Shown here piece after piece: positions 15,858 through 27,668 of a stretch of DNA of 62,922 nucleotides (positions are counted from its first letter, which is position 1; each line of letters starts with the position of its first letter). The translations under genes and the position numbers were made by a program. The notes under the pieces are model-generated. The model did not search any database, was not told where the DNA came from, and saw only the letters and a program-made list of their open reading frames with translations. This DNA comes from Thermoanaerobaculia bacterium (GTDB lineage Bacteria; Acidobacteriota; Thermoanaerobaculia; UBA5066). The stretch lies in the NCBI GenBank assembly GCA_022071945.1, contig JAJVIN010000032.1, forward strand, positions 1 to 62,922, given 5' to 3'.

Positions 15858-17771
15858 ATGCAGCGCCTTCGTGTGGAAATCCCCGGCGACGATTACCACA
15901 GAAACCTCATCTCCTGTCAGGTCGCGTGTCCTGTCCACACCGATGCCCGAGGCTATGTCAGGGCCATCGCGGCGGGCGATTTCGAGGAGGCCTACCTCAT
16001 CGCCCGGGGACCGAACCCGTTCGCGTCGATCTGTGGCCGGATCTGCGGGGCGCCCTGTGAGGCCGCGTGCCGGCGGGGCAAGGTCCCCAGGGTCGATGAC
16101 GACGGGTGCTTCGTGGCGAGCGACCGCCCGATCTCCATCCGGGCCCTGAAAAGATTCGCGTGCGAGATCGCCGGGCCGGATATCAGGCCGGCGAACGAAG
16201 TGCTCGCGGCCGTCCGCTCCTACGTTCCCGAGGTCACGGCGGACATCGACGAGATGGCGGCCCTCCTGAAGGCACGAGTCGCCGGCGGTTTCGTTCCAGG
16301 AAAGAAGGAACGGGTCGCCATCATCGGTGCCGGTCCCGCCGGCCTGTCGGCCGCTCACGATCTCGCTCTGCTGGGTTTCTCTCCCGTTGTTTTCGAGACC
16401 GAGCCCGTCGCGGCGGGAATGCTCGCGGTGGGCGTGCCGGCCTACCGGCTTCCAAGGGAGCTCATCCGGCGCGAGGTGGCCGTGATCGAAGCCCTGGGGG
16501 TGGAGATCCGCTGCGGCGTCACCGTGGGGAAGGACATCTCCTTTGAAACCCTCCGCAAGGAGTTCTCCGCCGTCGTCATCTCCGTGGGCGCGAAGAGCTC
16601 CCGCTCCCTGGGCCTTCCCGGGGAGCGCGGCCCTCGCGTCTATGGCGGCGTCGACCTGTTGCGGAACGTCTCGCTGGGCTCCTCGATGGACCTCGGACGC
16701 GAGATCGTCGTCATCGGCGGCGGCAACGTTGCCTACGACGTCGCCCGGACGGTTCTTCGCCAGATCGCCTACGACACGGCCCGTCTCGCGGCCCGGCTGC
16801 CCGGCACGTCGGCGGTCAAGCTCGTGTCTCTCGAGACTCTCGAGGAGATGCCGGCCGACACCGTCGAGATCGTGGAGGGCGACGAGGAGGGCGTGCAGAG
16901 GCTCAATGGATGGGGACCCGTCGAGATCAAGAGAGGGCTCTCGGGAGATGTCACGGGCGTCGTCTTCAAGAGATGCCTCAGGGTCTACGACGAGAACCGG
17001 CGCTTCTCCCCCGTCTTCGACGAGAGCCAGACGAAGACGGTCCCCTGCGACACGGTGCTTCTCGCGGTCGGTCAGTCACCCGACCTGGGGTTCCTCTCGG
17101 CTGGCGGGGGGGATGTCGAACAGTTCCGCCCCGGCTGGCCGAAAGTGGATCCGCGCTCCCTTTCGACGACGGCCCCCGGTGTCTTCGTCGCGGGGGACCT
17201 CGCTCACGGAACGCGGCTCCTGATCGATGCCGTTGCTTCCGGCAAGTCCGCCGCGCGGTCCGTCTACACCTATCTGACCGGCCGAGAGCTCGCGGCCGAA
17301 GCCCTGACGTCCCATCTGAATCTCCCGGGCTACCGGCGGGAACAGGGGTACGAATCGATCGGCCGCGCCCACCTGCCAACACTCTCCCCCGAGGCCCGGC
17401 TCGAGCATCCGGACAACGTGGTGGAGAAGGTCCTTCCGGCGGCCGATGCGATCCGCGAGGCGTCTCGCTGCCTGGACTGCGGCGTCACTCCCGTGTTCGA
17501 CGGGACGCGCTGCGTCCTGTGCGGCGGCTGCGCCGACGTCTGCCCGACCCTGTGCCTGAAGCTCGTCGCCCTCTCGGACCTCGACCCGAGCCCGGAGTTG
17601 AACTCCCTGATCTCTGACTCCCTGGGCAACCAGGCTGAGCTCTCGGAGCACTCCGCGATCTTGAAAGACGAGGAACGCTGCATCCGCTGTGCTCTCTGCG
17701 CGCAGCGCTGCCCGGTGGATGCCATCACGATGGAACGCGTCACTTTCCAGACGACGTGGAGGAATCCATGA
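15858..17771 (+). CDS. GltD-like FAD/NAD(P) oxidoreductase with N- and C-terminal Fe-S domains
   Basis: 637 residues. The N-terminal Cys-rich domain (SCQVACPVHTDARGYV, ICGRICGAPCEAACRR) is that of glutamate synthase small subunit/dihydropyrimidine dehydrogenase-type proteins and binds two [4Fe-4S] clusters. A FAD Rossmann motif (AIIGAGPAGLSAA) follows near 155 and an NAD(P) motif (VVIGGGNVAYDVART) near 280. The C-terminus adds ferredoxin-like Cys clusters (CVLCGGCADVCP, CIRCALCAQRCP). It is cytoplasmic. It heads the operon and overlaps the Rieske gene by 4 bases, so it probably exchanges electrons between NAD(P)H and the bc-type complex (inference). Confidence 0.88.
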   Translation: MQRLRVEIPGDDYHRNLISCQVACPVHTDARGYVRAIAAGDFEEAYLIARGPNPFASICGRICGAPCEAACRRGKVPRVDDDGCFVASDRPISIRALKRFACEIAGPDIRPANEVLAAVRSYVPEVTADIDEMAALLKARVAGGFVPGKKERVAIIGAGPAGLSAAHDLALLGFSPVVFETEPVAAGMLAVGVPAYRLPRELIRREVAVIEALGVEIRCGVTVGKDISFETLRKEFSAVVISVGAKSSRSLGLPGERGPRVYGGVDLLRNVSLGSSMDLGREIVVIGGGNVAYDVARTVLRQIAYDTARLAARLPGTSAVKLVSLETLEEMPADTVEIVEGDEEGVQRLNGWGPVEIKRGLSGDVTGVVFKRCLRVYDENRRFSPVFDESQTKTVPCDTVLLAVGQSPDLGFLSAGGGDVEQFRPGWPKVDPRSLSTTAPGVFVAGDLAHGTRLLIDAVASGKSAARSVYTYLTGRELAAEALTSHLNLPGYRREQGYESIGRAHLPTLSPEARLEHPDNVVEKVLPAADAIREASRCLDCGVTPVFDGTRCVLCGGCADVCPTLCLKLVALSDLDPSPELNSLISDSLGNQAELSEHSAILKDEERCIRCALCAQRCPVDAITMERVTFQTTWRNP

Positions 17772-18253
17772 CTGTGACTCCGACCCCCGCGCGGTCCCGA
17801 CTGGACCCCGAGCCGATGCCCCGCCGTGACTTTCTGGGACTCGCCTCCCTGTGGGCGGCGGCGTCGACGATGGTCTTCGCGGCCATAGGGATGCTCCGCC
17901 TCCCGAAGGCTGCCGTCCTTGCATCTCCCTCGAAGAAGTTCAAGGTCAATCTGCCGGAGTCGCTCCCTCAAGGGGAAGGATTCGTCCCGCCGGGCCGCTC
18001 GGTCGCCGTCTTCAAGGACAAGGAGGGCGTCTATGCGGTCTCGTTGATCTGCACTCACCTCGGGTGCATCGTCAAACAGACGCAGACCGGCTTCGACTGT
18101 CCTTGCCACGGATCCCGCTTCGCTCTCGATGGCACCGTGATCAAGGGTCCCGCTCCGGCTCCGTTGAAGTGGCACAAGGTCGCCGTCAGCGGCTCCTCGG
18201 TCACTGTCGACGAGGAGTCATCCGTCCCGGCGGGGACGAAGGTGCAAGCATGA
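17768..18253 (+). CDS. Rieske [2Fe-2S] protein of a bc-type complex
   Basis: 161 residues from ATG at 17768, overlapping the previous stop; an ATG four codons upstream is also possible. The N-terminus has a Tat-like PRRDFLGLASLW and one hydrophobic helix (about 20-45) that would anchor it. The Rieske ligands are intact: CTHLGC and CPCHGS, giving two Cys and two His, with the disulfide Cys residues present. It accepts electrons from quinol at the Qo site of the adjacent cytochrome b and passes them to a cytochrome c. Confidence 0.95.
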   Translation: MTVTPTPARSRLDPEPMPRRDFLGLASLWAAASTMVFAAIGMLRLPKAAVLASPSKKFKVNLPESLPQGEGFVPPGRSVAVFKDKEGVYAVSLICTHLGCIVKQTQTGFDCPCHGSRFALDGTVIKGPAPAPLKWHKVAVSGSSVTVDEESSVPAGTKVQA

Positions 18254-19797
18254 GCGCCGCGCTCCCCCACACAGCCATCGAGAGGTTTGTCGCAAACCTC
18301 AAGGCCATTCCGAACAACCTCCGCGCGGCTACCCTCCGCGGCGGGACCCCGAACACGGACCGCTCGCGGTCTTCCTTCGTCTTTGGAAACGTCTTTCTCC
18401 ACCTCCACCCGGTCCGCGTCCACCGCTGGTCGCTCAGGTGGACGACGACGTTCGGGCTCGGGATCATGGCGACCGCGGCCTTCCTCATCACGCTCGTGAC
18501 CGGCGTTCTCCTCATGTTCTATTACAAGCCGTACCCGGACGCGGCATACATATCGATCAAGGACATCCACTTCGTCGTTCCAACCGGACGCTTCATCCGC
18601 AACATCCACAGGTGGGCGGCCAATGTCATGGTCGTCGCGGTTCTCCTGCACATGGCGCGCGCCTTCTACACAGGTGCCTACAGGAAGCCGCGTGAGTTCA
18701 ACTGGCTCATCGGCATGGGGCTGCTCGTGACCACGCTCGGACTGTCGTTCACGGGCTACCTCCTTCCGTGGGACCAGCTCGCGTACTGGGCCATCACGAT
18801 CGGGGCGAACATCGCCCAGTCGCCTCGCGAAGTGACGGACGCCTTGAACCTCACGGAGTCCTTCGATCCGGGCGGGCTCCAGAAGCTCCTGCTCCTGGGG
18901 TCGAGCGAGGTGGGGGAGGAGGCCCTCATCCGCTTCTTTCTTCTGCACGTGATGCTCCTGCCTCTCGTTCTCTTCGGGCTGGCCGCCGTTCACTTCTGGC
19001 GGATCCGAAAGGACGGCGGCCTGGTGAGGCCCGCGAACGCGGACGAGATCCTGGGCCCGCGGACCGAGGCCTACCCGGTCTTCACCGAGGCGCCGAAGAA
19101 GACCTATCAGCTCGCGGCCATCGTCAAGGGAAAGACGGCCGCGGTCGGGAAGGGGCCCGAGAACACCCTCCCGTCCATGCCTCACCTCTTCTATGCCGAG
19201 CTCGGAATCCTGATGCTGACAGCCGGCATCTGTCTCGCTCTCGCGATGGTCTCGGACGCTCCGCTGAAGGAACTCGCAAACCCGGCCGTGCCCGAGAATC
19301 CGGCGAAGGCCCCCTGGTACTTCCTCGGCCTGCAGGAGCTCGTGGCTCACTCGGCCTTCATGGGCGGCATCGGCATCCCCTCGATCGTCCTGATCGGGCT
19401 TGGCCTCATCCCGTTCCTGGATCGAGAGACGGCGGGTACGGGAGAGTGGTTCGGCGGGCCCGGAGGAAAGCCGCTCGTCTTGCAAGCGATCGTCGTCGGT
19501 CTCGGCTCGGCGATCGCGATCGAGGCGGTTGCCATCCAGTTCGGCTGGATACGCGAGTGGTTCCCGAAAGCACCCCAGCTCCTGATCACGCTCATCAATC
19601 CCGGCACGGTGCTGACTCTCGTGTACGCGCTCTATTCCGTCTGGCTCGTGAAGAAGCACGACTCGACGCGGGCGGGAGCCCTGGGGCTCTTCACCTGCTT
19701 CCTCTGCGGATTCGCGCTGTTGACCCTCATCGGCACCTACTTCCGGGGCCCGAACTGGAACTTCTACTGGTCCCCGGCCGACTGGCCGGCCCACTGA
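18250..19797 (+). CDS. Cytochrome b of a quinol:cytochrome c oxidoreductase (fused b6 and subunit IV)
   Basis: 515 residues, ATGA overlap with the Rieske gene. Paired haem-ligand His residues are visible in helix B (NIHRWAANVMVVAVLLHMAR) and helix D (LLHVMLLPLVLFGLAAVHFW). The C-terminal half has the subunit-IV-type motif PENPAKAPWYFLGLQE, then two or three further helices. The PEWY-type Qo motif is not seen in canonical form; NPAKAPWYF occupies the equivalent region, as in b6f/menaquinol-type complexes. It has about ten membrane helices and contributes to proton-motive force by quinol oxidation. Its neighbours supply the electron acceptor. Confidence 0.92.
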   Translation: MSAALPHTAIERFVANLKAIPNNLRAATLRGGTPNTDRSRSSFVFGNVFLHLHPVRVHRWSLRWTTTFGLGIMATAAFLITLVTGVLLMFYYKPYPDAAYISIKDIHFVVPTGRFIRNIHRWAANVMVVAVLLHMARAFYTGAYRKPREFNWLIGMGLLVTTLGLSFTGYLLPWDQLAYWAITIGANIAQSPREVTDALNLTESFDPGGLQKLLLLGSSEVGEEALIRFFLLHVMLLPLVLFGLAAVHFWRIRKDGGLVRPANADEILGPRTEAYPVFTEAPKKTYQLAAIVKGKTAAVGKGPENTLPSMPHLFYAELGILMLTAGICLALAMVSDAPLKELANPAVPENPAKAPWYFLGLQELVAHSAFMGGIGIPSIVLIGLGLIPFLDRETAGTGEWFGGPGGKPLVLQAIVVGLGSAIAIEAVAIQFGWIREWFPKAPQLLITLINPGTVLTLVYALYSVWLVKKHDSTRAGALGLFTCFLCGFALLTLIGTYFRGPNWNFYWSPADWPAH

Positions 19798-19803
19798 GGC
19801 GCC

Positions 19804-21462
19804 ATGCGAAACAACAAGCTCCTTCTCCTATTCGGAAGCTTCTTGTCTCTCGCGCTCCTCGTCGTGGCGGCGGCGCAGGAGAACGTCTTCAGGGAGTGGC
19901 GGCGCGTGCAGTCCACCGCGAAGGCGCCGGGTGGTCCCGTCGAGAAGCGGCTCAGGCAGGTCGTCGTCCCCGCTCTCGGCGTCACGGACCGCTGCGTGAC
20001 GTGTCACGTTGGCATGTCGGCGGGCGAACCGAACGTCCCTGGCAATCCCGCGCTCGCGGCTCACCCTCCGATTCCGCACGATCCGGCGAGCTACGGCTGC
20101 ACGACCTGCCACTCCGGGCAGGGCCGGGCAACCGAGAAGGCCGACGCGCACGGAACCGTGCCTCACTGGCCGGAACCGATGATCCCGAAGGTCAATGCCG
20201 ACGCCGGCTGCGGGACGTGCCACTCCCACATCGAGGTCCCGAACACAAAAGCCCTGCGGAGCGGCCAGGCGGTCTTCGAGCGGTACGACTGTCTCAGCTG
20301 CCACAAGGTGGATGGGCGCGGCGGCACGCTCCGCCCGGGCGGTGGCGGGATGGAAGGTCCTGACCTCTCCAGGATCGGAGCGGCGGGCTACAAGGCGGAC
20401 TGGTACGAGAAGCACCTCGAGAAGTCCCGTACGGCGGGCGGGCCCTGGACCTCGACGTTTGGAACGATCCCCGATGTCGAGAGGGGAGACCTCGAGACCT
20501 TCCTGCGAACGCGCGTCGGAGCCCCGAAGCTCGTTTTGGCCAAGGCTCTCTTCCACTCGCTCGGCTGCCGCGGTTGTCACAAGATCGGCGGCGTCGGCGG
20601 GGACGACGGCCCGGAGTTGACGGCGGCCGGCCAGCGGGACCCGGCGCTCTCGGATTTCACGCACGTTCCGGGCGAGCGGACTCTCTCGAACTGGTGGGCC
20701 GAGCACTTTCGCAATCCGTCGGGAGTCGTCCCGGGTTCCCAGATGCCGGCCATGGTCGAGTCGGAAGAGGACATCCAGCTCCTGACCCACTATGTCCTTT
20801 CCCTCAGACGCGGGAAGTTCCCGGAAGCGTTCTGGCCCAGGGACCGGATCCGGGCCGAGCGGTTTGGCGAAAGGGAGTTCGCCACGGACGGGGCGACGCT
20901 CTACACGACGTTCTGCGCGGCCTGCCACGGACCGGCCGGAGAGGGGATGCGGTACGCGGGACTGCCCGTCTTTCCCGCCATCGGCAACCCGGACTTCCTC
21001 GAGCTGGCCACGGACGAGATGATCGCGGCGACGGTCAAGAGCGGCCGCCCCGGACGGCGGATGCCAGCGTGGGGCGAGAAGGCGGGCGGCCTTCGGCCCG
21101 AGGAGGTCGCGGCCGTCGTCGCTCACGTTCGCTCCCTGTCTCCGGTGAGACCCCAGCCTGACGGGAAGCCGAGAGTCTGGGCGAGGCCCGATGCTGCGCA
21201 CGGGCCGAGCGTCTATGCCCGCGCCTGCGCCTCTTGCCACGGGGACAAGGGACAGGGGGGCGAGGGACCGGCCCTCGCCAACAAGGTCCTTCTGGGCTCG
21301 GCCAGCGACACTTACCTTTTCGAGACCATTCGTCGCGGGCGTCGCGGCACGTCGATGGAAGCGTTCTCGCGTCCGTCGACGACCCGGCCCGCCCTTTCCG
21401 ACTCAGAGATCGAATCGGTCGTCGCCTTCGTGCGCGGCTTCGAAAAGGGAGAGAAGAAATGA
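19804..21462 (+). CDS. Heptahaem c-type cytochrome
   Basis: 552 residues with an N-terminal signal/anchor helix (about 5-24). Seven CxxCH haem c sites lie at residues 64, 99, 136, 163, 255, 371 and 475. The first three are closely spaced like a small multihaem module. The fourth and fifth resemble mono-haem domains. The last two are class I cytochrome c domains with distal Met candidates (RRMPAW; SMEAF). It replaces the usual cytochrome c1 and probably carries electrons between the Rieske protein and the molybdoenzyme gamma subunit or other periplasmic partners. It lies 6 bases after cytochrome b and has an ATGA overlap with the alpha subunit gene. Confidence 0.9.
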
Positions 21463-24400
21463 GTCCTTCCGATCCAAGACCATCCGAGCTTCACGGGTCC
21501 GAGAAGCAGGACTCCGGCGCCCCGTCACAGCCCTCGAGGCGCGAGTTCCTCGAGAGAGCGGCCGCCGCGGGCTTCGGCGCTCTGGTGGCCTCCGCGGGGA
21601 GCGCCTGGGGGCTCGACGCCCCGACGAACCCGCTCGCAACCTATCCGAAGCGCGACTGGGAGAAGGTCTACCGCGACCTCTGGAAATACGACTCCACCTT
21701 CCACTTCCTCTGTGCCCCCAACGACACGCACAACTGCCTTCTCACGGCCTACGTGCGCTCGGGTGTCATCACCAGAATCGGGCCCTCGATGCGCTACGGC
21801 GAGGCATCGGACCAGCTCGGGAACAAGGTCACCCACCGCTGGGATCCGCGCGTCTGCCAGAAGGGGCTCGCCCTCACCCGCCGTTTCTACGGCGACAGGC
21901 GACTCTCGCACTGCATGGTCCGCGCCGGCTTCAAGAAGTGGGTTGATGCTGGCTTCCCTCGGGGCAAGGACGGAAAACCCCCGGCCGAGTACTTCCAGCG
22001 CGCGCGCGACGAGTGGCAGAGGCTCACCCACGATGAGGCCGCCGCCATCGTCGCCAGGGCCCTGAAGAACATCGCCGAGACCTACACCGGCGAGGAAGGT
22101 CAGCGGAAGCTGAAAGAACAGCACTACGACGAGGAGTGCATCAAGGCCACACAGGGCGTCGGAACCCAGGTCCTGAAGTTCCGGGGAGGGATGCCGCTTC
22201 TGGGGATGACGCGCGTCTTCGGCATGTACCGCCTCGCGAACTCCATGGCCCTTCTGGACGCCCACATCCGGAAGGTCGGCCCCGACAAAGCCATGGGCGC
22301 CCGAGGATTCGACAACTACTCCTGGCACACCGACCTCCCCCCCGGACACCCGATGGTGACGGGCCAGCAGACGGTCGAGTTCGACCTCAACGCCACGGAA
22401 CACGCCAAGACGGTCGTCGTCTGGGGCATGAACTGGATCACGACGAAGATGCCGGACTCCCACTGGCTGACCGAGGCCCGCGTGAAAGGGACGAAGATCG
22501 TCGTCATCGCATGCGAGTACTCGGCCACCTCGACGAAGGCGGATGAAGCCATCATCGTCCGCCCCGGGACGACGCCGGCCCTGGCCCTCGGCCTCGCTCA
22601 CGTCATCATGAAGGAGAAGCTCTACGACGCGGAGTACGTCAAGCAGTGGACCGACCTCCCGCTCCTCGTCCGCATGGATTCCCTCAAGTACCTGAGGGCC
22701 TCCGAGCTGAGTGGAGCCGCGGTCGCCGAGCTGAAGAACCAGACCAAGGTCCTCAAGGAAGGAGAGAAGGCTCCGGCCCCGGGCATGCAGGGCGACCTCC
22801 TGATCCCGGAGAAGCTCCGGAACGCCTGGGGAGATCTCGTCTTCTGGGACCAGAAGGCCAACGCCCCCAGGGTGATCACGCGTGACGACGTCGGGAAGAA
22901 CTCGAAGGTTGTCGACCCGATGCTCGAGGGTGAAGTCGAGGTGACCCTGGCCGACGGCAAGAAAGTCCGCTGCCGGCCGGTCTTCGATCTCGTCAAGGAG
23001 TACGCCGCCCACTTCGACCCGAAGACCACGGAGGAACTGACCTGGGCACCGGCGGCCTCGATCGAGGGCCTGGCGCGCCACATCGCGAAGAGCCCGGGCA
23101 CGACGCTCTTTGCCATCGGCATGGGTCCGAACCAGTTCTTCAACAACGACAACAAGGACCGCGACATCTTCCTGCTCGCTGCTCTGACGGGGAACGTCGG
23201 CAAGGTCGCCGGGAACGTCGGGTCCTACGCGGGGAACTACCGCGTCGCGCTCCTCAACGGGGCTCCGCAGTACATCAACGAGAACCCATTCGATCTCGAG
23301 CTCGATCCGGCCAAGCCCGCCCGGCCGAAGCAGTACTGGAAGGCGGAGTCCGCCCACTATTACAACCACGAAGACCACCCGCTGCGGGTAGGGAAAAAGC
23401 TCCTGACGGGGTCGACCCACATCCCGACGCCCACGAAGTCGATGTGGTTCGCCAACGCGAACTCGATTCTGGGGAACGTGAAGTGGCACTACAACACCGT
23501 CGTCAACGTCCTGCCGCGCATCGAGATGATCGCCGTCAACGAGTGGTGGTGGTCGACGTCTTGCGAGTGGGCCGACATCGTCTTCGCCGTCGACTCCTGG
23601 GCCGAGCTGAAGCATCCGGACATGACGGCCTCCGTGACGAACCCGTTCCTGACCGTCTTTCCCAGGACACCGCTCGACAGGATCTTCGGCACCGTTGGCG
23701 ACATCGACGTCCTGGCCAAGGTCGGGGACCAGATGGCCAAGCTGACGGGAGACCAGAGATTCTCGGATTGCTGGAAGTTCGTGAAGGAGGACAAGACGGC
23801 CGTCTACCTGCAGCGAATCCTCGACTTCTCGTCGAACGCGAGAGGGTACCGGATCGAGGAGCTCGAGGAGAAGGCGAAGCTCGGGATTCCCGCGCTCCTC
23901 ATGAGCCGGACCTCTCCGAAGACCGTCGGGTACGAGCAGGTGACCGACTCGCGCCCCTGGTACACGAAGTCGGGCCGGATGGAGTTCTACCGGGAAGAGG
24001 ACGAGTTCATCGAGGCGGGTGAGAACCTGCCGGTCCACCGCGAACCGATCGACTCGACGTTCTACGAGCCCAACGTCATTGTCGGCCCGAAGCACGAGGC
24101 CTTCCGTCCGGCGGGCCCGAAGGCCTATGGCGTCGACGAGAAGGATCTCTCCTGCGAGGTGAGGCAGGGGAGAAACGTGGTGAAGACCTGGGCCGAGACG
24201 AAGGCCTCGGCGCACCCGCTCGCCAAGGACGGCTACAAGTTCATCTTTCACACTCCCAAGTACCGGCACGGGGCTCACACGATGCCCATCGACACCGACA
24301 TGGTGGCCGTTCTCTTCGGGCCGTTCGGGGACGTGTATCGCCGGGATCAGCGGAGTCCGTTCGTCGCCGAGGGTTATGTCGACATCAATCCCGACGATGC

Positions 24401-24975: not shown

Positions 24976-26097
24976 ATGGCGCGCGTTCACAACTGGCAGA
25001 TCGGGCGGGAAATGTCCTACTGGTACCCGGAATCCCGGCCCAGCCGTCAATTCGCGGCGATCTTCGACATCAACAAGTGCATCGCCTGTCAGACCTGTAC
25101 CCTCGCCTGCAAGACGACCTGGACCTCCGGGCGCGGCCAGGAGTACATGCTCTGGAACAACGTCGAGTCCAAGCCCTACGGCTTTTATCCGCTCGCCTGG
25201 GACCTGAAGCTCCTGAAGGAGCTCGGACCTCAGGAGTGGAAGGAGGGAACCTACGAGGGACGGACGATCTTCGAGGCCGCCAGGCCCGGGGAACGAGCTC
25301 TCGGCTGGCGGCCGGATGACATCGACTACGCCAACCCCAACGTGGGCGAGGACGACTGCGTCGGCCAGGTCGAGAACGGCGCCGGACTCGAGGTGCCGCA
25401 TCTCAACTGGTTTTTCTATCTCGCGCGGATCTGCAACCACTGCACGTACCCCGCCTGCCTTGCGTCCTGCCCCCGGGGCTCGATCTACAAGAGGCCCGAG
25501 GACGGCATCGTCCTCGTGGATCAGGGCCGCTGCCGCGGGTACCAGGAGTGCGTCAAGGCCTGCCCCTACAAGAAGGTCTTCTTCAACCCGATGACGGGCA
25601 CGTCGGAGAAGTGCATCGCCTGCTTCCCGAAGTTCGAGCAGGGGCTGCAGCCCCAGTGCTTCGTGAACTGCATCGGGAAGATCCGGATGGCCGGCTGGAT
25701 CTCTCCGCCCGACAAGGCGCGCCCCGACAATCCAATCGACTACCTCGTTCACATCAAGAAGATCGCCAAGCCGCTCTTCCCTCAGTTCGGGCTCGAGCCA
25801 AACGTCTACTACATTCCCCCTATCCACGCGCCGTCATCATTCCTCAACCAGATGTTCGGTCCCGGAACCGAGGCCGCGATCAAGGCCTACCGCAACGCGG
25901 ACGACGACCTCGCGGGACTCCTCGCCCTCTTCGGATGCACCGAGAAGGTCATGCCGCGCTGGAAGAGACAGGGGGACATGGTGATCGCGATGGAGGAGAA
26001 CGGGTCCGAGATGCTGCGGGTCCCCATGCGCGAGCCCGTCCACATTCGCCCCGCCTTCGACATCCGCCACGGCGTGACGAGAACCAACTGCCCGTAG
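24976..26097 (+). CDS. Iron-sulfur beta subunit of the type II molybdoenzyme (NarH/NxrB/SerB-like)
   Basis: 373 residues, beginning 4 bases after the alpha stop. There are four Cys clusters of the NarH type: [38 protein letters not shown] and SEKCIACF, with later Cys residues at QCFVNC. In the third cluster a Tyr (CRGY) occupies the position that is Trp in NarH, where a [3Fe-4S] cluster is formed. It would carry electrons between the Mo centre of alpha and the haem of gamma. It has no signal peptide, so it should be exported by hitch-hiking on the Tat signal of alpha, as in periplasmic members. Confidence 0.9.
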
Positions 26098-26106
26098 GAG
26101 GCCAAC

Positions 26107-26967
26107 ATGAAGAAGAGCTCGCTTCTCCCAGTTCTTCTTGCCGCCGTCGTGCTCGTTGCGGCCTGCCAGAAGTCGACCCATGCCCCGAGTCCCGACGTGC
26201 GAGTCGTCTCTCGCACCTCGCTTCCGGCGGATCCGAACGACCCGGCGTGGTCGACGGTGCCCGTCCACGTGGCGCCCCTCGTCCTGCAAGACATGGTGGA
26301 GCCGCGCTTGATCCAGGCGTCCACCGCGCAAGTGGAGGTCCGGGCCATCTCCGACGGGTCGAGAGTGGTGTTTCGGCTCAGCTGGGCCGACGGCACGAAG
26401 GACGACTCGGTGCGGCCCGCCCACTTCAGTGACGCTTGCGCCGTCCAGCTCCCCGCCAAGGTCCAGACGGACGTTCCGGCCCCTCAGATGGGCGAGGCGG
26501 GCAAGACCGTGGAGATCACCTACTGGAAGGCCTCCTGGCAGGCCAGCGTCGACGGACGCAAGGACACGATCAAGGAGGTCTATCCGGGAGCGGCCGTCGA
26601 TCACTATCCCTTCGAGGCGGCTTCGCTGCCAACGGACTCGGACGCCCAGAAGGAGATGGCTCTTCGCTACTCCCCGGCACGCGCCCTTGGCAACACGATG
26701 GCCGGACCGAGAAAGAAACCCGTTGAAGACCTCATCGCCGAGGGTCCCGGAAGCCTGACTCCCGCTCCCGCGGGAACCTCCGACGGAAAGGGACTGCGGA
26801 CCGAGAAGGGCTGGGTCGTCGTTCTGTCCCGAGCCATGCCGGCGGGCCTGAACTCCTCGGGCCGCTCCCAGGTGGCGTTCGCGGTCTGGGAGGGAAGCCA
26901 CGAGGAGGCAGGGGCCCGCAAGATGAGAACCGGCTGGGTTCCCGTTGTCCTGGAGAAGAAATCGTGA
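26107..26967 (+). CDS. Haem-b gamma subunit, ethylbenzene-dehydrogenase-like lipoprotein
   Basis: 286 residues. The N-terminus is a lipoprotein signal (hydrophobic run ending LVAAC, lipid Cys near 19), so gamma would anchor the enzyme to the outer face of a membrane. The body is a beta-rich EB_dh domain, as in EbdC, SerC, ClrC and NxrC subunits, which bind one haem b through Met and Lys. Candidate ligands are the Met in QMGEAG and residues in the C-terminal segment SQVAFAVWEGSHEE. Gamma normally passes electrons to a c-type cytochrome, which fits the heptahaem gene upstream. It overlaps the chaperone gene by 4 bases. Confidence 0.8.
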   Translation: MKKSSLLPVLLAAVVLVAACQKSTHAPSPDVRVVSRTSLPADPNDPAWSTVPVHVAPLVLQDMVEPRLIQASTAQVEVRAISDGSRVVFRLSWADGTKDDSVRPAHFSDACAVQLPAKVQTDVPAPQMGEAGKTVEITYWKASWQASVDGRKDTIKEVYPGAAVDHYPFEAASLPTDSDAQKEMALRYSPARALGNTMAGPRKKPVEDLIAEGPGSLTPAPAGTSDGKGLRTEKGWVVVLSRAMPAGLNSSGRSQVAFAVWEGSHEEAGARKMRTGWVPVVLEKKS

Positions 26968-27668
26968 CGCCGCTCGAGTCTCCCGCGATCCGAGTCGCTG
27001 AACCCGACGCCGCGATGCTTCTTTCGAAAGCCGCGGAGTGGCGGCTCCTCTCGCTTCTCTTCGAGCGGCCGCGCGCGGGCTGGCTCGACGAGGTGAAGAG
27101 CTTGGCAGCAACCGGCGTCGGAGAGGACTTGATTCAGGCAGCCGATCGGGCAGCCGGGGCGAACGAGGGCCTCTATCTCGATGCTCTCGGTCCCGGCGGG
27201 TTCACCTCGCCCCGGGAGGCTGGGCACCGCGTCGCGGGAGACCCGGGGCACATCCTCTCCGAGATCGAGTCGTACTACGAGGCCTTCGGGTTTCGGCCCG
27301 AGACGGAGGAACCCGCCGATCACGTCTCGGTCGAGGCCGGGTTCCTGGGGTTTCTGGCGCTCAAGGAGGCGTTCGCTCTTTCGCGCGGAGACCTCGAGGC
27401 GGCGGAGGTGACCCGGGAAGCAGCCTCGAAGTTCCTCGAGAACCACCTCGCGGCCCTTGCGGAGCCAGTGGCGACGGCGATGGGAGAGACGACGGTTGCA
27501 TACCTCGAGCTTGCCGGGAAAGCCCTGCTGGCCAGGACGGGGCCGAGGCCCTCGGACCTCGAGGGCTACTGGAGCCCGAGAGGACTCTGCGATGTCGAAT
27601 GCCCGATGTTCTCGTGCGAGGAAGGGGAGTCGCAACAAGAGATGACCCTGGAGGAGATCCTTCCGTAA
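26964..27668 (+). CDS. TorD/NarJ-family molybdoenzyme assembly chaperone (delta)
   Basis: 234 residues, GTG start overlapping the gamma stop (GTGA). All-helical with the family signature region EIESYYEAFGFRPETEEPADHV, matching the E-x-D-H-x-x-x-E type motif (PADHVSVEAGFL). A Cys-rich C-terminal tail (CDVECPMFSCEEGE) is present. Such chaperones bind the alpha apoprotein, aid Moco insertion and hold back Tat export until folding is complete. It is the last gene before the Moco riboswitch. Confidence 0.85.
   Translation: MTPLESPAIRVAEPDAAMLLSKAAEWRLLSLLFERPRAGWLDEVKSLAATGVGEDLIQAADRAAGANEGLYLDALGPGGFTSPREAGHRVAGDPGHILSEIESYYEAFGFRPETEEPADHVSVEAGFLGFLALKEAFALSRGDLEAAEVTREAASKFLENHLAALAEPVATAMGETTVAYLELAGKALLARTGPRPSDLEGYWSPRGLCDVECPMFSCEEGESQQEMTLEEILP

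Follow-up and report, generated by a model that had tools for sequence, protein, structure and literature searches.

A predicted aspartate-ligated FS0 cluster in a molybdopterin oxidoreductase from a sister clade of periplasmic nitrite oxidoreductases

Introduction

Among enzymes of known structure, the nitrite oxidoreductase (NXR) of Kuenenia stuttgartiensis (KsNXR; PDB 7B04) is the closest relative of the protein described here, and in its crystal structure the FS0 cluster is bound by three Cys and by Asp71 (PMC8387239). An Asp-ligated FS0 is thus already known and is not new with the enzyme of this study. Both NXRs and nitrate reductases (NARs) carry a 3Cys/1Asp or a 3Cys/1His FS0, depending on lineage (PMC8387239), and a 2025 review restates the Asp71/Cys53 difference and reports that the active-site neighbours N312/T259, E527/A542 and K917 differ between NXR and NAR (PMC12300631). 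The FS0 of E. coli NarGHI, which is His-ligated, has a published midpoint of -55 mV (PMC8840923); our literature search found no midpoint for an FS0 with an Asp ligand. Within the published sister clade of the Nitrospira and anammox NXRs are the proven periplasmic NAR of Hydrogenobacter thermophilus as well as the proven NXR of Nitrotoga (PMC6050957), the latter sharing about 40% identity with KsNXR (PMC8387239).

The DNA analysed here, referred to as the window, is a 62,922-nucleotide stretch of a Thermoanaerobaculia bacterium (contig JAJVIN010000032.1, assembly GCA_022071945.1). An earlier note on it had drawn attention to an Asp in the FS0 ligand set of an alpha subunit and had taken this residue as a possible hint toward the NXR branch.

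Results

Translated from its ATG at position 21459, where it overlaps the stop codon of the upstream cytochrome c gene, the alpha-subunit gene yields the motif C85-APN-D89-THN-C93 and a distant C133, and hence the Asp-type FS0 pattern C-x3-D-x3-C...C (Table 1). The earlier note had read the ligand set as C85-D89-C93-C133, with Cys instead of His in first and Asp instead of Cys in second position relative to H49, C53, C57 and C92 of NarG. Translation and alignments bear out the Asp, and the N-terminal alignment with NxrA and NarG that the note had proposed agrees exactly with its pairing; the end coordinate it gave, 21859, lies two bases beyond the last ligand codon. Against Kuenenia NxrA (C67/D71/C75/C115) the alignment of the four ligands is free of gaps, and the spacing from ligand 3 to ligand 4 is 40 in both proteins. 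Across 41 aligned orthologues C85, N88, D89, C93, C133 and D292 are invariant, as are H91 of the N-D-T-H stretch and the twin arginines RR27-28 of a Tat motif, SRREFLERA. A sequencing error, frameshift or misreading at D89 was ruled out, the codon being GAC and the motif being kept in 102 relatives, and a chance alignment of the motif was ruled out by its invariance in the orthologues and in 102/102 readable close relatives.

Table 1. Features of the alpha-subunit FS0 site and active site, and genes of the surrounding cassette (window coordinates)
Feature	Position	Strand	Evidence
FAD/Fe-S oxidoreductase (GltD/NfnB-like), first gene of conserved cassette	15858..17771	+	
Rieske Fe-S protein	17756..18253	+	
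Cytochrome b (b6/petB type)	18250..19797	+	
Multihaem c-type cytochrome, seven CXXCH motifs	19804..21462	+	
Alpha subunit, molybdopterin oxidoreductase (NXR/periplasmic NAR supergroup), 1170 aa	21459..24971	+	7b04_B E 2e-256; type II DMSO reductase alpha models
C85, predicted FS0 ligand 1 (NarG H49, KsNXR C67)	21711..21713	+	Alignment; invariant in orthologues
N88, substrate-side Asn (NarG N52, KsNXR N70)	21720..21722	+	Alignment; invariant
D89, predicted FS0 ligand 2 (NarG C53, KsNXR D71)	21723..21725	+	Alignment; D in 102/102 clade I
C93, predicted FS0 ligand 3 (NarG C57, KsNXR C75)	21735..21737	+	Alignment
C133, predicted FS0 ligand 4 (NarG C92, KsNXR C115)	21855..21857	+	Alignment
K135, Lys beside FS0 (KsNXR K117, NarG R94)	21861..21863	+	Always accompanies Asp89
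D292, Mo ligand (NarG D222, KsNXR D275)	22332..22334	+	Alignment; invariant
T329, pocket residue; Thr as NarG T259, Asn312 in NXR	22443..22445	+	Alignment
Beta subunit, four Fe-S clusters, NxrB-like	24976..26097	+	7b04_A E 5e-116
Gamma subunit, haem b (EB_dh)	26107..26967	+	7b04_C E 9e-18
NarJ/TorD-type chaperone	26964..27668	+	

In a phmmer comparison with solved structures, the alpha subunit of KsNXR (E 2e-256) ranked far above PcrA (6e-53), EbdA (2e-43) and NarG, and KsNXR was also the best match of the beta and gamma subunits. The best family model was the generic TIGR03479, with a score below its cut-off. Two features of the type II DMSO reductase family were found, namely the Mo-ligand Asp (D292) and the combination of alpha, beta and gamma subunits with a dedicated chaperone. 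An AlphaFold2 model of alpha, built with the 41 orthologues, matches the overall fold of 7B04 (TM about 0.8); pLDDT is below 50 in the FS0 loops (residues 86-91 and 127-148) and the cofactor is absent from the model, and because of the low confidence of these loops the model was left out of our reading of ligand geometry.

To follow the Asp beyond the window, relatives were gathered from genome contigs, phylum-wide genome searches and plasmids, and 190 alpha rows were aligned. We refer to the window type (>55% identity) as clade I and to the NXR-like group including Kuenenia as clade II. The pattern C..N-D..C..C, with Asp at the position of D89, is present in 102/102 readable members of clade I; in clade II the residue is Asp in 62/72 and Cys in 10/72. 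The set is His-Cys-Cys-Cys both in E. coli NarG and in the NarG encoded by the window's own genome. In a maximum-likelihood tree of 105 rows, made by a quick method and with an NXR anchor of anammox and NXR-like genomes only (sequences of Nitrospira, Nitrospina, Nitrotoga and Hydrogenobacter were left out), clades I and II are sisters. The NXR-like group, from which the window is excluded, has an SH-aLRT of 100, and the anammox anchor (L126) is identical to 7B04 across the 354 residues searched.

The residue at position 135 follows the ligand type: it is Lys in all 164 Asp-type sequences, Asn in 10/10 of the all-Cys type and Arg in NarG. In the tree, the Cys-type rows of clade II form one nested subclade (support 98). 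The association is clean but not statistically replicated, because the Asp-to-Cys and Lys-to-Asn changes both fall in this one lineage, and our sequence counts are not counts of independent events. Members of the all-Cys subclade (L115, L206:2867-6313, L154, L157, L158, L159, L161, L165 and L210) have the motif CSPNCTHxC, with Asn, Arg and Tyr at the equivalents of window K135, M331 and H637.

Of the 52 clade I loci that extend far enough upstream, 51, from several phyla, keep the cassette FAD/Fe-S-Rieske-cytochrome b-cytochrome c-alpha-beta-gamma, in which gamma is lacking only at contig ends. About 20 NXR-clade loci were compared; one of them has Rieske and cytochrome b genes, and a second has a cytochrome b gene without Rieske. 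In gamma, the candidate haem b ligands are M128 (in 73/73) and K272 (in 70/73). The same subunit has a lipoprotein-like signal, LVAAC, whose Cys20 is kept in 72/73, and this lipobox-like signal may possibly tether to the membrane a complex that is otherwise soluble. A FAD/Fe-S subunit beside the Rieske/cytochrome b pair suggests that quinol oxidation could be coupled to cytoplasmic pyridine nucleotide or ferredoxin. A Moco riboswitch (RF01055; 27687-27810) separates the chaperone gene from moeA, and moaA and a MOSC/MogA-type gene come next.

In the substrate pocket, the T329 position is Thr in 102/102 clade I sequences and Asn in 61/62 Asp-type sequences of clade II. The window has M555 where NXR has Glu527 and NAR has Ala542, and the invariant K934 matches K917 of KsNXR. 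As predicted from the alignment, the pocket is therefore mixed and is without two of the NXR residues, N312 and E527. The traits of NarG are likewise absent: instead of an H-x3-C-x3-C...C cluster site, the lack of a Tat signal and a NarI partner, we found C-D-C-C, RR27-28 and an EB_dh gamma subunit.

A strong NrfA match (E<1e-40) is present in 15/19 acidobacterial carriers of the alpha gene versus 12/60 non-carriers (Fisher p 6e-6, ancestry ignored), and the window's own genome has a partial NrfA-like match. RuBisCO occurs in only 3/25 carriers; the window's genome has RuBisCO and phosphoribulokinase, and it also has a classical NarG with NarI. A search of this genome for NirK gave nothing over the cut-off. 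At one locus of the genome (G000:C6:10000-29900; L235) genes for the RuBisCO large subunit, phosphoribulokinase, a HAD phosphatase and transketolase stand together, which gives the host genome a Calvin-cycle potential.

Discussion

We consider it likely that FS0 of the window enzyme is a [4Fe-4S] cluster held by C85, D89, C93 and C133, the homologue of the 3Cys/1Asp FS0 established by the structure of Kuenenia NXR, and that the enzyme, a member of a sister clade of the NXRs, is most probably a periplasmic respiratory nitrate reductase. The assignment of D89 as a putative ligand is made by homology to the solved structure, and we infer the geometry of the cluster in the window protein. With KsNXR the enzyme shares the 3Cys/1Asp FS0, the Lys beside it, the Mo Asp, the substrate Asn, the Tat signal and an EB_dh gamma subunit with Met/Lys haem candidates. 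It differs in belonging to a separate clade (39% identity), in T329 and M555 for N312 and E527, and in having Rieske/cytochrome b and FAD/Fe-S genes of its own within the operon. Judged by its published description, the clade of Nitrotoga NXR and Hydrogenobacter thermophilus NAR is similar in being sister to the Nitrospira and anammox NXRs and in having a Tat signal and a secreted haem gamma subunit (PMC6050957). E. coli NarG (1Q16; 26% identity) shares the fold, the Mo Asp, N52/N88, T259/T329 and the four FS0 ligand positions, but has a 3Cys/1His set (H49 first, C53 second), Arg94 in place of Lys135, a cytoplasmic location and NarI as partner. PcrA (4YDD) and EbdA (2IVF) share the type II DMSO reductase fold with an FS0 in alpha, but have a 3Cys/1His FS0 and are clearly more distant in sequence and fold score.

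In the mechanism that we propose, the cytochrome b/Rieske pair encoded alongside would oxidise quinol, whose electrons would travel by way of the seven-haem cytochrome c to the haem b of gamma (M128/K272), and from there through the four Fe-S clusters of beta to the Asp-ligated FS0 and on to Mo-bis-MGD (D292), where nitrate would be reduced to nitrite. Direction of electron flow, substrate and any shift of potential brought about by the Asp are what we infer for this enzyme. The simplest reading for clade I as a whole is one of nitrate reduction with subsequent ammonification. NXRs work in both directions, and because of this reversibility and of a published sister clade that holds both NAR and NXR, sequence alone cannot settle direction. 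The RuBisCO and phosphoribulokinase of the host and its lack of a NirK match over the cut-off also count against the nitrate reductase reading.

It could be argued that D89 is present without being a ligand, the cluster being bound by H91 or having only three protein ligands, since H91 is invariant too. KsNXR has the same N-D-T-H, yet its crystal structure gives Asp71 and not the neighbouring His as the ligand, and the all-Cys subclade keeps the His while Asp is replaced by Cys, as expected if position 89 is a ligand; we therefore regard this alternative as very improbable. We give equally little credence to the view that the enzyme acts on another substrate, such as chlorate, selenate or a hydrocarbon. 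The diversity of substrates among type II DMSO reductases and the sub-threshold match to a generic family model would be compatible with it, but NXR is by far the closest solved relative, N88, a proposed nitrate/nitrite contact that is Ile in ethylbenzene dehydrogenase (PMC8387239), is invariant, and the association with NrfA speaks against it.

We consider it unlikely that the enzyme is itself a nitrite oxidoreductase. Nitrite-derived electrons would then travel outward via FS0, beta, haem b and cytochrome c; some would go to an oxidase, and others would run in reverse through cytochrome b and the FAD/Fe-S protein, supplying reductant for the Calvin cycle. The KsNXR-like FS0, a Tat signal and an EB_dh gamma subunit of the kind that periplasmic NXRs have, K934 and the RuBisCO and phosphoribulokinase of the host all accord with this, as does the placement of Nitrotoga NXR in the sister clade of the NXR group (PMC6050957). 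However, the window clade is not part of the NXR-like clade, T329 and M555 replace N312 and E527, few carriers have RuBisCO, most acidobacterial carriers have NrfA, a nitrite consumer, and a classical NarG and NarI are likewise encoded by the host. A bolder version, in which the Asp-FS0 enzyme and the Rieske/cytochrome b/FAD-Fe-S module would form an NXR driving Calvin-cycle autotrophy in an unrecognised nitrite oxidizer, probably an acidobacterium, seems to us a long shot.

The suggestion in the earlier note that some NXR-type enzymes have Asp here was right, as Asp71 of KsNXR illustrates (PMC8387239); its further idea that the Asp hints at the NXR branch holds to the extent that NXR-type enzymes have it, and fails as a pointer to nitrite oxidation, for the residue is common to the whole supergroup including the window clade, and ten NXR-like proteins are without it. 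Since Asp is found in clade I and in most of its sister clade II, it is, on the alignments at hand, a mark of the common supergroup of periplasmic NXRs and related nitrate reductases and not of nitrite oxidation. Genome surveys consequently cannot take the FS0 Asp to mark nitrite oxidation, given that a broad clade of probable nitrate reductases, from Acidobacteriota, Planctomycetota and other groups, shares it.

The all-Cys subclade lies outside the published alternatives of 3Cys/1Asp or 3Cys/1His, and an all-Cys FS0 probably exists in nature, as its motif suggests. In E. coli NarG the H49C substitution, which would yield an all-Cys set, is reported to abolish activity (PMC8301774), which makes the natural subclade worth testing. 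Taken together, His/Cys (NarG), Cys/Asp (NXR and clade I) and Cys/Cys (the all-Cys subclade) form a natural series in which the adjacent residue changes in step from Arg to Lys to Asn, and this series offers a ready set for probing how FS0 ligands tune electron flow in either direction.

The plasmid search returned one haloarchaeal homologue of this type, in Natronococcus occultus (L096:9900-10400; about 49%), which has the motif CTPNDTHNC; its frame is broken shortly after the motif, and a CDS annotation is absent there. Among relatives of the host the alpha gene is patchy, being found in 4/61 genomes including its own, and its nearest neighbours in the tree are from Planctomycetota (L010-L012; support 94), a distribution that suggests horizontal transfer of the gene.
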